From assembly GCF_027889715.1 (NCBI RefSeq), contig NZ_JAPJZH010000012.1:1-64000 (forward strand): a stretch of DNA of 64,000 nucleotides, given 5' to 3'. This document shows, one piece after another, positions 2,733-10,233 of this stretch. A model generated the notes under the pieces. It made no database searches. It was not told the DNA's origin and worked only from the letters and a program-made list of their open reading frames with translations. The DNA is from Allohoeflea poritis (GTDB taxonomy: Bacteria; Pseudomonadota; Alphaproteobacteria; Rhizobiales; Rhizobiaceae). The position numbers and the translations under genes are program-made. How positions within the stretch are numbered: the stretch's first letter is position 1; each line of letters opens with the position of its first letter.

Positions 2733-2882
2733 AGATCGCCCCTTCGATTTCGTTTGCATGCATCTGCATCTAACAGCGCGACGGGTAAATTCTAGTCGGC
2801 GTTGCGCTACTTCTCATTGACTTTGCGACAATGTTGCTTTCGGCAAAATTGAGAACAGATACGGCCAAACGGGCAGGCCTCA

Positions 2883-3173
2883 CTATTGGCCTGCGTGAAC
2901 TGGCACAAATCGAATCCAGCCAACCAAATTGGAGACGATCAGCAAACCTCCAAACATGAATACTGCTATCAGCCAATGAACAAAGGTTTTCATTCGCCGA
3001 CCAGGGCCCGGAAACCATTTGAACCCTCGAAGCCAACCGAGAACAATGTCGAAAAACATCAATATGAAAAGGAAATGGCGGAAAAACAAATAGATAAACA
3101 GCACAATCAATATGATTTGTATATACGTGTTTTCCGGTATTATCTGAAACTTAGCTCCAGATGTCCTGCTCAT
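2883..3173 (-). CDS. Small two-TM membrane protein, unrecognised
   Basis: From the ATG at 3173 the frame gives 96 aa with two strongly hydrophobic segments, about residues 18-45 (IQIILIVLFIYLFFRHFLFI and onward) and 66-86 (VHWLIAVFMFGGLLIVSNLVG), with an Arg/Lys-rich connector (GRRMK). The local base composition is visibly richer in A and T than the neighbours, which suggests recent acquisition or relaxed constraint. A longer start at 3248 is possible. The ribosome site at 3173 is weak. No homologue comes to mind, so the call rests on topology only. Confidence 0.5.
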   Translation of the reverse strand: MSRTSGAKFQIIPENTYIQIILIVLFIYLFFRHFLFILMFFDIVLGWLRGFKWFPGPGRRMKTFVHWLIAVFMFGGLLIVSNLVGWIRFVPVHAGQ

Positions 3174-3303
3174 TTTAAGGGACCTGCTCTCTTTCGTTGA
3201 ACTGAAGTGATGCAGACAAGTATATGCAGCACTAATATCTGCGCACAATTTTTTATTGAAAAGTCAGCTGCAAACAACAATTATTTGGTGTTGTTCAATC
3301 GAC

Positions 3304-3978
3304 TCAGGATGACTGCAGCGCGGCGATTTCATCCCCGAACACCGTCACCGGATCGCCCGCCTGCCATTTCGGATATTTGTCCATGATCGCGGCAAAGCGG
3401 TCCGACCGCTCGAAATCTCCCAGCCAGGCCTTCAGCGCCAGCCAGTCCTCGCCGTCGAACCAGGCGCGGTCGGCGTTGGCGAACTGGCGCACGAAGGGCA
3501 GGATCGCAAAGTCGGCGAGGCTTGGGCGGCTACCGAACAGCCAGCCCGTCTCGGCGAGACGTTCTTCGAACGCGATGAGTTCTGCCGCCGCCTTTCCACG
3601 CTCTTCCAGCCGGTCGTGGTCGGGATGGCGCGTATCGTATTTGTAGCGGTCGAGGCTCTGCTTGAACGGCCCGTCCATGTGTTCGATCAGCGCCAGCATG
3701 TCATCGAGCGATCCGGTTTCCGGGGAAAGCCAGCCTTCCGGATCGTTCCGTTCAAGCGCCCACAGCATGATGTCGAGGCTCTCATCGATAACGCCTCCAT
3801 CGGGTTCCACCAGGGCCGGCACGGTCGCCGACGGCGAGGCTTCGAGGAATTCGGGCGCCTTGTCGCGCAGCACCACCTCGCGCAATTCGACCGCCGTGCC
3901 GCTGCTGCGCAGCGCCAGCCGGGCGCGCATCGCATAGGGGCAGCGGCGGAAACTGTAGAGGATCGGCAAGGACGTCAT
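3304..3978 (-). CDS. Glutathione S-transferase family protein
   Basis: A 224-aa protein with an N-terminal thioredoxin-like GST domain (residues 1-80) and an all-alpha C-terminal domain. The motif RRCPYAMRAR, with Cys13, points to Cys-type (omega or beta-like) GSTs that reduce or deglutathionylate rather than conjugate. ATVPALVEPDGGVIDES contains the cis-proline and the glutathione-binding Glu-Ser. The C-terminal domain has the usual SLADFAILPFVRQ helix. The start at 3978 is chosen because it lies 19 bp after the CoA-transferase stop, with which the gene probably forms an operon. Confidence 0.87.
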   Translation of the reverse strand: MTSLPILYSFRRCPYAMRARLALRSSGTAVELREVVLRDKAPEFLEASPSATVPALVEPDGGVIDESLDIMLWALERNDPEGWLSPETGSLDDMLALIEHMDGPFKQSLDRYKYDTRHPDHDRLEERGKAAAELIAFEERLAETGWLFGSRPSLADFAILPFVRQFANADRAWFDGEDWLALKAWLGDFERSDRFAAIMDKYPKWQAGDPVTVFGDEIAALQSS

Positions 3979-3997
3979 CGGAACCTGTGTGTATCTG

Positions 3998-6493
3998 TCA
4001 TTCGGGCAGATATTTATCGCACCATTGCCGCGCAACAACACCCTCTTTGATCATCGCATCGATTTCATCGCCGCTGTAACCGAGACCGGAGAGGATCGCG
4101 TGCCCGTCGACGCCCGGCTTCGGCATCGGCCCCGGCACCGTGATCGCGGCTCTTTGCGGGCGGATCGCGTTGGGCGCGACGAGATCCACCCACCGCCCGC
4201 TCGGATGCCGGTCGTGGCGGATGAAGCCGAAAGTGCCTGATTTCAGATCGGCGGGCCCGGCGCTCTCACGGGCCAGATGCGCATCGCGCACCGCATGCAT
4301 CTTGTCGAGGGCATGGCAGCCGATATCGGCCTTTCGGAGCTGACCGATCCAGTGCGCCACGGGCCGGCCCGCGAAGATCTCTTCCAACGTGGCCGCGCGC
4401 ATCTGCGGCGAAGCCGAGCGGATTGCACCCAGCCCGTCGACGATTGCCAGCGCCTCGATGTCGTCCACGAACGCTGCAAGGAAAAACCAGCCATCTTCAG
4501 CAAGGTAGGCGCGGTAAAGCGGCCCCGCACCCTTGATCGTGCGACCGCTCGGCTCATCGAATGGCGGACGGCCTTCAAAATCGAACATGAAGGGCGCCTG
4601 GATAAGCTGGCCGGCGGCGCAGAGCGAGGCGCGGGCCACATCGCCCCTGCCCGTTCGCGCCCGCTGAAAGAGCGCGGCGGCGGCGGCCAGCGCACCGCAG
4701 AAACCGCCGAGTACATCGATCGTGCCGAAATGCGCATGCTCCTCCGGCGTGTCGAGCGATCCGCCGAAGCGCGCCATGACACCGGTCACCGCCTGGGCAA
4801 GATCGTCATAGCCCGGAAAATCGCTGTGCGGCCCGCGCATCGACCCGCCGTAACAGTCGAGTTGGCAAAGAATCACGCCCGGATGGGCTGCCTGCAGACG
4901 ATCCGGGTCAAGGCCGAGGCGGGCGAGCTGTCTGTCCGTCGCATTGACGGTGACGATATCGGCCCAGCCGATAAGGCGGTCCAGCGCCTGCCGGCCCTTT
5001 TCGGATTTCAGATCCATCAGCAGGCTCTGTTTGCCGCGCCCGGCCTGCATGCCGAAGATGATCCCATTCCAGGGGTCCATGGTCGGCGTCACGGGATCGA
5101 CGGAAATGACCTCCGCGCCGAAGCGCGCCAGTGTCGACGCAATGGTCGGCCCGGCAATGACATTGGTGAGGTCGAGGATCCTGATACCGTCCAGCCAGCC
5201 GCCACCGGCCGGTGCGGCCGCCGGCTCCGGTTTCGGCTCGGCGGCGATCTGCTCCGGCTCGGCAAGGCGGCGCGGGGCCTTTTTCGATGCTGTTTCCGCG
5301 TCGCCTGCAAGCCAGGCGAGATTGCCGAGCTGCCGCATAGGTCCATAGTCCGGATCGTCGACATCGATCAGCAGGCGCGCCTTTTGCGGATGTTCGGCGC
5401 TCAACCATTCCTGTGTCGTGCGCTGCGCGGCCGCCGGCGCACCGTTTTCGCCGAAGATCGTCTCCCATTCAAAGGACGGCCGGGCAAGGAACGCTTCCTT
5501 CATCAGCGACGAGACGCGGTCCGCCCAGGCCTGCGACAACGGATAGCTCGACAGTGAGCAGCCGTCCTCGCCCGGCCAATCGGCGACATCGTCATAGGCA
5601 TAGTGACGCGGCAGGCCTTCCGCGACCAGCCGGTCCCAAAGGCCGAGAATCTTCAGGACACGCTCGGGATGCACCGAGTGGGAGGCGCTGACCACATAGA
5701 TCTGCCGCCCGTCGGCGCACATATAGTTGCGGTAGAACGGGTCGAGCAGCTCCTGCAATTGCCCATAGGTCGCGTCCATTGGCAGGCCCTCGGCCCGCCG
5801 CCGCTCGATCTCTTTCTCGCGGTTCGACTTGTAGCGGTCCGGATAGTCCTCGACCTGCTGCGAATTGTAGGCAAGCCCCTCCATCAGGGCCGAAGCCAAT
5901 GGCACTTCGATGACATCCCCGCCGCCGCCTTTCTCGCGCCGGCAAAGCGCCAGCACGACGGATGCCGCGCCCAGCACCGAGGCATAGGCGGAAGCGAGCG
6001 GCAGGGGCGAGAAACTGGGTTCGATCCCCATCAGGACGCGGTTGAGGCCCATGTCGGAATATTGGCCGCACGCAGCCGCGATCACCGCCTCCCAGGCGCG
6101 GATGCCGGCACGCTGCGGATCGGTGGACGCAAAACCCGGCAGCGACAGGTATATGAGATCGGAACGGTCGATCGTGTCGGCATCGAGCCCGAACCGCGCC
6201 ATGACGCCCGGCCGGAAGTTCTCGATCACCACGTCAGCCGATGCGATCAGCCGCCGCGCTTCGGCAAGACCCGTTCCGGATTTCAGGTCAAGCGCGACAC
6301 AGCTCTTGCCGCGATTGAGCATGGCGGCGGCCGGAGATTGCCACCGCGGCCCGCCCGGCGGGTCGACATGAATGACTTCGGCGCCGAGATCGGCGAGCAT
6401 CATGGCCGCGGCGGGTCCGGCCATATATTGGCCGAAATCGATCACCCTGACACCCGCCAGCGGCCGGCCTTCGCTGTTACGCTGTTCCGTCAT
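3998..6493 (-). CDS. Tandem-domain CaiB/BaiF (class III) CoA-transferase
   Basis: A protein of 831 aa with two consecutive CoA-transferase family III domains, residues about 10-410 and 435-825. Each opens with the same signature (GVRVIDFGQYMAGPAAAMML; GIRILDLTNVIAGPTIASTL). Family III enzymes move CoA between acyl donors through an aspartyl-CoA thioester. The second half keeps an aspartate where the catalytic residue is expected (GTIDVLGGF, about residue 592). The first half shows SPLPLASAY there and looks inactive, so the fusion may act as a pseudo-dimer. The ATG at 6493 is preceded by GAGGA; a longer frame starting at 6607 would run into the repeat at 6539-6592. The acyl substrate is unknown. 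Confidence 0.88.
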   Translation of the reverse strand: MTEQRNSEGRPLAGVRVIDFGQYMAGPAAAMMLADLGAEVIHVDPPGGPRWQSPAAAMLNRGKSCVALDLKSGTGLAEARRLIASADVVIENFRPGVMARFGLDADTIDRSDLIYLSLPGFASTDPQRAGIRAWEAVIAAACGQYSDMGLNRVLMGIEPSFSPLPLASAYASVLGAASVVLALCRREKGGGGDVIEVPLASALMEGLAYNSQQVEDYPDRYKSNREKEIERRRAEGLPMDATYGQLQELLDPFYRNYMCADGRQIYVVSASHSVHPERVLKILGLWDRLVAEGLPRHYAYDDVADWPGEDGCSLSSYPLSQAWADRVSSLMKEAFLARPSFEWETIFGENGAPAAAQRTTQEWLSAEHPQKARLLIDVDDPDYGPMRQLGNLAWLAGDAETASKKAPRRLAEPEQIAAEPKPEPAAAPAGGGWLDGIRILDLTNVIAGPTIASTLARFGAEVISVDPVTPTMDPWNGIIFGMQAGRGKQSLLMDLKSEKGRQALDRLIGWADIVTVNATDRQLARLGLDPDRLQAAHPGVILCQLDCYGGSMRGPHSDFPGYDDLAQAVTGVMARFGGSLDTPEEHAHFGTIDVLGGFCGALAAAAALFQRARTGRGDVARASLCAAGQLIQAPFMFDFEGRPPFDEPSGRTIKGAGPLYRAYLAEDGWFFLAAFVDDIEALAIVDGLGAIRSASPQMRAATLEEIFAGRPVAHWIGQLRKADIGCHALDKMHAVRDAHLARESAGPADLKSGTFGFIRHDRHPSGRWVDLVAPNAIRPQRAAITVPGPMPKPGVDGHAILSGLGYSGDEIDAMIKEGVVARQWCDKYLPE

Positions 6494-6538
6494 CGTCGCC
6501 CGATCCTCGCACGTGACGGGCAAGGATAGCGGCGAACC

Positions 6539-6592
6539 GCCGGCCGCGACGTTCCCATCGCGACATCCATGCGGCCTTCGTGCCGGTTCTAT
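6539..6592. repeat. 54-bp direct repeat, copy 1
   Basis: This segment matches 7704-7757 at 48 of 54 positions in the same orientation. It begins GCCGGCCGC and contains TTCCCATCGCGACATCC. Copy 2 overlaps the last codon of yjbQ, so copy 1 looks like a displaced duplicate of the yjbQ 3' end. It sits 45 bp upstream of the CoA-transferase start. Confidence 0.85.
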
Positions 6593-6647
6593 AAGAAAAA
6601 GACCCAACAGGACCCGTGCGAACCATCACCATCGATCTGGTGAAGAT

Positions 6648-7379
6648 CTAATCATGGGACATGATTTTCGGATGCGTATGAACGCCTGCATAGGCTTCTT
6701 CAAGAAATTGAAGAGAAACGATCAAGAACGTGAGGCCCGCCTTGAGTCCACCTAGTGATTCGGACATGGCGGACTCATTCTCATTCATCCACATCTGCAC
6801 ATTGGGAACCGGAAGGCCAGCAACTTGCTCAGAATATCTATTCAGGTCGCACGTTTTCAGTGTCTTAGCATCAGACTTGACCTCGTCAAGCGCCCGATAA
6901 CCAGCTCCATCCAGCATGTTCTGAACATCTTTCAGTTGACGCCTACCAACAAATTCCTCGATGTCGTTTGCGACAGACATGAGTTCTGCATTGATTTTTT
7001 TGGAACTACCGTTTGGCGACAGACCGGCGTCGATAAACCGACTAATCTCCAACGTTACAACTTCCAGCCTGACCAGAAGGGACTCTGCATCTTTCATCGA
7101 AGGATAGCAGGCTCGTTCGACTTTCAAGGCATCAGACCTAAGATTAAGATTTATAAGTTCTCGGTGCCGGTCCTCCGTCAATTCATCAGATTTTCGCATT
7201 TGCAGAATTGTTATAAATGCCACGAATATTGCCAGACTCCCGGCAAGCAGCGGTTGCCAGTTGTACAACCACCCTCCCACCTCACCAAAGGAGGTTGGAA
7301 ACGAAGCACCCAAAAAAATGCCGGCGATAAGCGAAGTGGTGAAGTACGCTATCGCAAGAACGTTATTCACCTTGTTCAT
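6648..7379 (-). CDS. Orphan membrane-anchored protein in the repeat-bounded patch
   Basis: A 243-aa protein with two N-terminal membrane segments (about 8-28 and 40-62) followed by a cytoplasmic, mostly helical region. The segment YNWQPLLAGSLAIFVAFIT followed by charged helix (QMRKSDELTEDRHREL) resembles, from memory, small hypothetical proteins common in alphaproteobacterial prophage and accessory regions. No enzymatic motif is visible. Codon use is more A/T-rich than in neighbouring genes, which supports horizontal origin. Its strand matches the flanking genes but it lies inside the bounded patch, so it should be treated as cargo. Confidence 0.65.
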   Translation of the reverse strand: MNKVNNVLAIAYFTTSLIAGIFLGASFPTSFGEVGGWLYNWQPLLAGSLAIFVAFITILQMRKSDELTEDRHRELINLNLRSDALKVERACYPSMKDAESLLVRLEVVTLEISRFIDAGLSPNGSSKKINAELMSVANDIEEFVGRRQLKDVQNMLDGAGYRALDEVKSDAKTLKTCDLNRYSEQVAGLPVPNVQMWMNENESAMSESLGGLKAGLTFLIVSLQFLEEAYAGVHTHPKIMSHD

Positions 7380-7474
7380 CGGGCCTTATCCTCACTTGCC
7401 TTGCGGTTGCAATCTACTAGCACGTATCGGGCACTCAAAAAAAAGCTCAGTTGGAGGAAAAAGCACGGACTAGC

Positions 7475-7665
7475 ATGAACGGCGAAATGATGAAAATTCA
7501 CGCCACCATTCATGTCTCCCGCAAGCAACTCGGCTTGGACGACGACACCCCACGCGATCTTCATGAGTTGAAACCGGTAAGAGGTTTCTTCTGAAAATGT
7601 CCCGGGACGATCATTTGAAAATCTTCGTAGCGACCGAACAACGCGGCTTCAAACGGTGTGCAGGC
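7475..7665 (+). pseudogene. Decayed gemA-like (Mu gp16 / DUF1018) phage gene fragment
   Basis: An ATG at 7475, preceded by GGAGGAAAAAGC, opens a 39-codon frame containing IHVSRKQLGLDDDTPRDL. This matches the N-terminal signature of the phage regulatory protein GemA (typically IHVAKKQLGLDDDTYR). The frame stops at 7592-7594. In another frame the segment 7597-7665 encodes SRDDHLKIFVATEQRGFKR, which fits the next conserved part of the same family (a GFKR-type ending). I read this as one gene broken by a frameshift. Family assignment is from recalled motifs. Confidence 0.55.
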
Positions 7666-7703
7666 ATGCACCGAGACGGAGCCGGGAAGCACATCTGCGA
7701 AAT

Positions 7704-7757
7704 GCCGGCCGCAACGTTCCCATCGCGACATCCTTGCGGCTTTCGCGTCGGTCCTAT
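7704..7757. repeat. 54-bp direct repeat, copy 2
   Basis: Partner of 6539-6592 (48 of 54 identical). It runs from GCCGGCCGC to the TAG stop region of yjbQ (stop at 7754-7756) and forms the right boundary of the low-GC patch. Confidence 0.85.
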
Positions 7758-8167
7758 CTAGAAATGTGGAAGACGACCTTGCGGCTGTGCGGCCTTCGCC
7801 GGTGCTCGAAGAGATAGATGCCCTGCCAGGTGCCGAGCAGCATGGCCGATCCGGCGACCGGGATCGACAGGCTCACTTGCGTGAGCGCCGCCTTGATATG
7901 CGCCGGCATGTCATCCGGCCCCTCGCTCGTGTGCCGCAGCCAGCCCATGTTCTCCGGCACGATGCGGGCGAAGAACTCATCAAGATCGCGCTGCACATCC
8001 GGATCGGCGTTCTCCTGGATGACCATCGAGCAGGATGTGTGGCGCACGAAGATGGTCAGGACACCGGTATCGATGCCGGCATCGGTGACAAAGCGCGCGG
8101 CCTCGCGCGTGAACTCGTAGAGCCCCTGCCCTTCGGTCCGGATTGTGATTTCGCTCTGCACGGTCAA
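7754..8167 (-). CDS. yjbQ: YjbQ / UPF0047 family protein (secondary thiamine-phosphate synthase type)
   Basis: A 137-aa protein spanning the whole UPF0047 family. Conserved features are the TGVLTIFVRHTSCSMVIQEN strand-helix, the NMGWLRHTSEGPDDMPAHIK segment with its two histidines, and the closing GTWQGIYLFEHRRRPHSRKV. Some members show weak thiamine phosphate synthase activity in vitro, but the physiological role is unclear. The start is uncertain: TTG at 8167 or GTG at 8161, both without a clear ribosome site. They lie directly against the rpoD terminator at 8170-8193, so translation initiation may be weak or leaderless-like. Confidence 0.85.
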   Translation of the reverse strand: MTVQSEITIRTEGQGLYEFTREAARFVTDAGIDTGVLTIFVRHTSCSMVIQENADPDVQRDLDEFFARIVPENMGWLRHTSEGPDDMPAHIKAALTQVSLSIPVAGSAMLLGTWQGIYLFEHRRRPHSRKVVFHISR

Positions 8168-8169
8168 AC

Positions 8170-8193
8170 AAAAAGGCGGCCCCGCAGGCCGCC
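8170..8193 (-). terminator. Intrinsic terminator after rpoD
   Basis: On the minus strand GGCGGCC (complement of 8187-8193) and GGCCGCC (complement of 8175-8181) form a 7-bp stem with a 5-nt loop, followed by TTTTT. It lies 6 nt after the rpoD stop and only a few bases before the yjbQ start. Confidence 0.88.
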
Positions 8194-8199
8194 TTGTCT

Positions 8200-10233
<2,034 letters not shown>

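Follow-up and report, generated by a model that had tools for sequence, protein, structure and literature searches.

How did about 1.1 kb of apparently phage-derived DNA come to lie between two direct repeats beside yjbQ, where no integrase is encoded? The question arises in a 64,000-nucleotide stretch of an Allohoeflea poritis genome (hereafter the window), for which the original prediction had described a low-GC patch with a gemA remnant and an orphan membrane-protein gene, and had proposed that phage-derived DNA inserted at the 3' end of yjbQ, duplicated the target end and then decayed. The locus comprises the following features.

3998–6607, minus strand: host open frame at the left border, named CoA-transferase in the original prediction and by eye, collinear in Nitratireductor sp. 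XY-223
6539–6592, no strand: left copy of the duplicated host unit, from the repeat alignment; similarity perhaps continues to about 6533
6584–6592, plus strand: 9-bp stretch common to the host site (XY-223) and the DUF3164 Arg-Phe-Tyr codons, a probable microhomology at the left junction
6584–6651, plus strand: remnant tail of a phage DUF3164 gene, its last ~23 codons with one frameshift, from two six-frame ranks
6648–7379, minus strand: intact gene for a 243-aa membrane protein, an open frame whose product has two hydrophobic segments near its N-terminus followed by a long C-terminal part
7475–7697, plus strand: 5' part of a phage gemA with one frameshift and its 3' part missing, from profile and shuffle tests; similarity is secure up to about 7653 and weaker from there to about 7690
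7704–7757, no strand: right copy of the duplicated host unit, from the repeat alignment; its final 4 bp overlap the yjbQ stop
7754–8167, minus strand: yjbQ (UPF0047), host gene at the right border (PF01894, E = 9.1e-39)

The start of the CoA-transferase-like frame at 6607 is a mechanical assignment and falls within the insert.

The duplicated host unit and its single-copy counterpart

The two copies of the unit are identical at 48 of 54 positions, in agreement with the original prediction, and their alignment score of 105 compares with a maximum of 45 among 200 dinucleotide shuffles. A repeat search returned an extended pair of 74 nt (6519–6592 and 7684–7757, 82%) that contains the 54-bp pair. 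A longer repeat was nevertheless rejected, as similarity in the flanks beyond the unit was at shuffle level, with 112 and 115 of 1000 shuffles reaching the respective scores. The GC content between the copies (6593–7697) is 48.9% vs 60.8% for the window, confirming the low-GC patch. Another patch of low GC (44%) lies at 2751–3250, where the minus strand has an open frame for a hydrophobic 121-aa product (2883–3248).

The nearest relative found, Nitratireductor sp. XY-223, carries the same site without the insert. Window positions 3318–6592 match 8688–5408 of the XY-223 locus at 83% and positions 7700–8200 match 5466–4965 at 85%, the two matches overlapping by the 59 bases that constitute its single unit (5408–5466). 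Both host flanks are thus in register, and neither flank score was reached by any of 200 shuffles; by eye, the right copy and XY-223 have a few further bases in common, to about 7698. The comparison of the yjbQ to CoA-transferase interval, which could have revealed the segment without repeats in a relative, instead revealed an empty site with one copy of the unit, and the proposed insertion with duplication of a host stretch is thereby upheld. Either the source lineage gained about 1.1 kb together with a second unit, or XY-223 lost both precisely; a gain is the simpler reading, since the seven other genomes of the genus gave no match to the membrane-protein gene, and the capture is most simply dated after the split from XY-223. 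Three other genomes of the genus have a yjbQ match followed within about 80 bases by the next gene past the CoA-transferase-like frame (window about 3332–3968, GST-like by eye); they lack this spacer and therefore provide no test of the insertion site.

The predicted position at the 3' end of yjbQ holds insofar as the repeat adjoins the gene. The duplicated DNA itself is nearly all downstream spacer, with only 4 bp inside yjbQ, so that the site combines direct repeats at a gene end and a one-copy empty counterpart with a unit that is almost wholly intergenic. The six differences between the copies, polarised on XY-223 by eye, fall three to the right copy and one to the left, with two unassigned to a side, a split compatible with decay and equally with two different att sites. 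Within the repeats lies an identical core of 20 bp that is also common to XY-223. Among 394 genomes, an exact 19-bp core occurred at two places in the source genome and one in a further genome of the genus, G002, and at no further place; with up to two mismatches, 106 of the 394 had a match, clearly above the reversed-pattern control. A dispersed repeat, which the original prediction had named as a way to be wrong, was rejected on the basis of these three exact places, as was a regulatory unit. A phage bearing the same core was likewise discarded, as viral contigs contained no exact 18-bp match to it.

Phage genes between the repeats

The gemA remnant was assessed with a home-made profile built from 10 rhizobial GemA proteins, which were picked by motif in 10 of 18 fetched loci. 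Among the six-frame pieces of the window, 7421–7591 matched at E = 8.9e-8 and the next piece at E = 0.44, indicating that the predicted gemA similarity is real. The RGFKR piece in the second frame, which had been part of the same claim, fared less clearly: it was absent from the match list up to the limit of E = 50, and when tested alone it scored above all 2000 shuffles, barely (4.8 vs 4.6 bits). The suggested search of the broken frame against PF06252 returned no match for the short pieces, and none was found in the source genome; two PHROG profiles of unknown function matched at E = 0.003–0.005. The source genome also had no match to GemA and MuA profiles at E ≤ 0.001. The segment is thus a broken remnant and not a GemA gene, and the fragment extends over roughly the first third of gemA.

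The 243-aa protein has hydrophobic stretches at about residues 6–27 and 41–62. A profile search with the product of 6648–7379, as had been recommended, yielded no Pfam, NCBIfam, PHROGs or PADLOC family at useful scores (zero families for both NCBIfam and PADLOC). The 393 other genomes of the family yielded relatives at 22 places, distributed over 19 genomes, with 28–46% identity over the matched part and 37% for the best of them. Viral contigs contained no relative in a single-protein query, and plasmids gave two weak records. Out of 50,697 phage records, Sinorhizobium phage Aussie (OR786373) was the only one matched (E up to 0.01).

We inspected the surroundings of these relatives in stretches of 18–19 kb per genome, two of them only about 10 kb owing to a contig end. 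In 10 of the 19 loci, gemA is the divergent neighbour within about 2 kb (split or short in L133, L135 and L143). DUF3164 lies within the fetched stretch in eight, oriented as in the window, and a MuA relative above 30 bits in seven. One such locus, L131, has MuA (PF02914), MuB (PF09077), DUF3164 (PF11363) and GemA (PF06252) as Pfam-identified neighbours. In phage Aussie the order runs from transposases A and B through gp15, with a DUF3164-type tail, and the antisense gp16 and gp17 to GemA. Phage and insert thus have in common the order of a DUF3164-type gene, antisense membrane gene(s) and GemA in the same divergent orientation; unlike Aussie, the insert measures only about 1.1 kb, has both DUF3164 and gemA broken and lacks transposase, repressor and structural genes. 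The membrane-protein gene, which had been called an orphan, is therefore better described as phage cargo: going by gene order in the 10 loci and in Aussie, it belongs with gemA to the same phage segment. A literature search found nothing on phage Aussie, nor anything joining transposable phages, GemA, Mu-like and Rhizobi.

Six Mu-like loci (L148, L149, L151, L153, L154 and L157) have a gap between DUF3164 and gemA of 0.7 to 3.1 kb with differing open frames, and this gap is a variable cargo spot in those loci. Two diverged, adjacent copies of the membrane gene occur in three of the 19 relative loci and in phage Aussie (gp16–gp17); the paired copies lie at L133:8719–10573, L142:8332–10069, L143:7616–9394 and L181:8977–10412. 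Within the genus, G005 carries a Mu-like prophage with MuA, DUF3164 and gemA (contig C62, L183–L185) on the 46-kb contig that also holds yjbQ; its 1.2-kb gap between DUF3164 and gemA contained no membrane-gene relative by profile.

For nine of the 19 relative loci, the fetched stretch lacked gemA. In L129 the relative sits beside a tyrosine integrase and tRNA-Cys, and in L145 it is bracketed by a tRNA-Thr gene and, 3.9 kb away, a 95% identical 60-bp duplicate of that gene's end. These tRNA sites and the loci without gemA indicate that the family rides several kinds of element, Mu-like phages not being the only carriers of the membrane gene. A direct-repeat test round eight relative regions recovered the tRNA-end pair in L145 and, in L140, a 23-nt pair of 78% that we judged to be chance. 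The 3.9-kb mini-island of L145 (7264–11261) also holds an MtlR/DUF4145-like gene, and Pfam saw no integrase in the one frame tested.

The DUF3164 tail and the left junction

The order of the membrane gene and gemA in Mu-like phages predicts a plus-strand DUF3164 gene at the insert's left end, and a C-terminal remnant of one was found there on the predicted strand. Two pieces were scored in six frames against the conserved C-terminus of DUF3164 (PF11363; ...RFY...[VI]TIDLAK), which we counted as present. Each of them, RFYKKKTQQDPCE at 6584 and TITIDLVKI followed by a stop at 6622, ranked second of 127,912 positions, one unrelated position outscoring the tail piece each time. The pieces are collinear to within one base, with a one-base shift in register between them. 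A home-made profile of the whole gene gave a non-significant E = 5.8 for the 18-aa piece, as expected for only 18 residues. The tail is assigned on its position, its strand and the two ranks, and it adds a third phage gene to the gemA piece and membrane gene that the original prediction had recognised.

With a DUF3164 tail on the left, gemA on the right and the order seen in the relatives, the insert is best read as one contiguous internal piece of about 1.1 kb from the early region of a Mu-like transposable phage. The genes at its two ends break off at the repeats or close to them. At the left border, the final 9 bp of the unit are native host sequence, being also present in XY-223, and at the same time equal the expected Arg-Phe-Tyr codons of DUF3164, exactly so in two of 15 phage relatives (L131 and L139). 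This border is probably a microhomology junction, a reading drawn from the codons of relatives, with the donor phage itself unsampled. The right junction showed no firm match between host and phage, and gemA similarity is weak past 7653.

We further compared the units with the 3' ends of the 15 DUF3164 genes. The left unit scored better than the right unit in 12 of 15 and, relative to the XY-223 unit, higher in seven and equal in eight; it exceeded the 95% background in only three. A phage origin of the repeat itself was not adopted, and these scores are read as the 9-bp overlap and nothing more.

Proposed route of capture and its alternatives

The gene content, order and orientation of the insert and the empty site are observed; for the route by which it arrived, we favour, with moderate confidence, the illegitimate capture of an internal Mu-like phage fragment in the spacer that separates yjbQ from the CoA-transferase-like gene by microhomology-guided template switching, the membrane gene being probably kept. 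Where host and phage gene match over a short stretch, repair or replication synthesis would have switched from the host strand to the phage, read through about 1.1 kb there and rejoined the host 54–60 bp upstream of the exit point, thereby duplicating that stretch. The two cut phage genes would have decayed afterwards, while the membrane-protein gene stayed open and was probably retained. A template switch with return to the host 54–60 bp upstream would account for the fragment, the junction and the duplication together. In E. coli, junctions at short matches and template switches have been reported (PMC3161906). Microhomologies of a few bp, duplications and switching to another fork are described there, as in the route favoured here; the events described rearrange resident DNA, unlike the foreign phage DNA inserted at this locus. 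Template switching into phage DNA in the source organism is our inference. A literature search on short-patch double illegitimate recombination found no reports.

Other routes were weighed against the same observations. If a staggered break with overhangs of about 54–60 nt had been filled and a stray phage fragment ligated between its ends, the arbitrary fragment ends, the duplication and the absence of a recombinase would all follow. NHEJ in Sinorhizobium meliloti reportedly takes part in the acquisition of heterologous DNA (Dupuy and colleagues, 2019), which we counted in favour of such end joining. Ku (PF02735) was, however, not found in the source genome, which weakens the classical form of this pathway, and the 9-bp match at the left junction is not needed by it; on balance we regard break capture as unlikely, though the strongest competitor. 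Among eight genomes of the genus, Ku was matched only in G002 (contig C44, 251315–251860), with no match in the source genome and the six others searched, so that NHEJ is patchy in the genus. The gene-end insertion by an integrase that had been considered in the original prediction would make the units attL and attR of an element of which only the gemA-bearing stretch survived deletion of the integrase and most of the remainder. The position at a gene end, the imperfect 54-bp repeats with their 20-bp identical core also found in XY-223, and the distant relatives of the membrane gene at tRNA-site elements (L129 and L145) speak for this scenario, which we nonetheless consider improbable. From an integrase one would expect the ends of an element and not a pair of adjacent phage genes that are both cut. 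The insert ends inside the two genes found on either side of the membrane gene in Mu-like phages, so that any deletions would have needed to halt at the repeat on either side. No integrase frame was seen between the repeats, as had been noted; among the PF00589 matches listed for the source genome (six of 10), all are on other contigs, and the core has no other exact copy in the 394 genomes and no exact 18-bp match in viral contigs.

Least credible of all is a Mu-like prophage that integrated by means of its own transposase and later lost DNA to deletions at either side, a scenario to which we assign very little weight even though the gene content, including the local order of DUF3164, antisense accessory gene and gemA, is that of Mu-like phages and G005 carries such a prophage on the same contig as yjbQ. 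Mu transposition gives a 5-bp target duplication at the phage termini; here the duplication spans 54–60 bp and the borders lie within phage genes. The source genome had no match to the MuA transposase (PF02914), and a second host unit would not have survived deletions that extended to both host borders. The comparison with the empty site also disfavours this origin. Taken together, the cut within phage genes at both ends and the 54–60-bp duplication argue against integrase and Mu transposition alike.

The predicted contrast between a decayed gemA and a neighbour that stayed open was borne out. The two remnants contain two indels in about 246 nt. For an unconstrained frame of 729 nt, the probability of no indel would be about 0.003 at this rate and 0.05 at half of it, values that rest on only two indels, and at 5.8% substitution 27% of neutral replicates would remain free of stop codons. 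That the membrane gene was retained is thus suggested and not proven.

As to what that function might be, SLATT domains are two-TM effector domains linked to nucleotide-signalling systems, and the window protein likewise has two N-terminal hydrophobic segments. The profiles NF033634 and NF033632 (NCBIfam) gave weak matches in four and three of 12 aligned members, respectively (best E 0.0013 and 0.0038), confined to the relatives and not extending to the window protein. With PADLOC, four families each had one weak match to a member among the relatives. Matches of the helical C-terminal part to solved structures were weak and were not used (best E = 0.0029 to yeast chains KLLA0F05247p, followed by ribosomal uL29/L35). 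A role of the protein in membrane-based exclusion or as an abortive effector is a guess.

More generally, we tentatively raise, as a doubtful possibility, that phage accessory genes can be taken up independently of a recombinase: through template switching at short matches, a gene-sized internal fragment would be copied into a spacer, its landing site would be duplicated in the manner of an att site or a transposon, and a cargo gene for a two-helix membrane protein, from an unnamed family at the variable spot between DUF3164 and gemA, would be kept for its own function. The present case is unusual in detail and built of known parts. When a short foreign islet has direct repeats and lacks a recombinase, it is readily taken for a decayed integrase island; here, the gene order reveals a transposable-phage fragment with arbitrary internal ends, which suggests recombinase-free capture and offers an example with two readable junctions. 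It also draws attention to a group of membrane proteins for which neither Pfam, NCBIfam nor PHROG offers a named family at a useful score, and which occupies both a variable spot of Mu-like phages and elements at tRNA sites and is a candidate for superinfection exclusion or defence.
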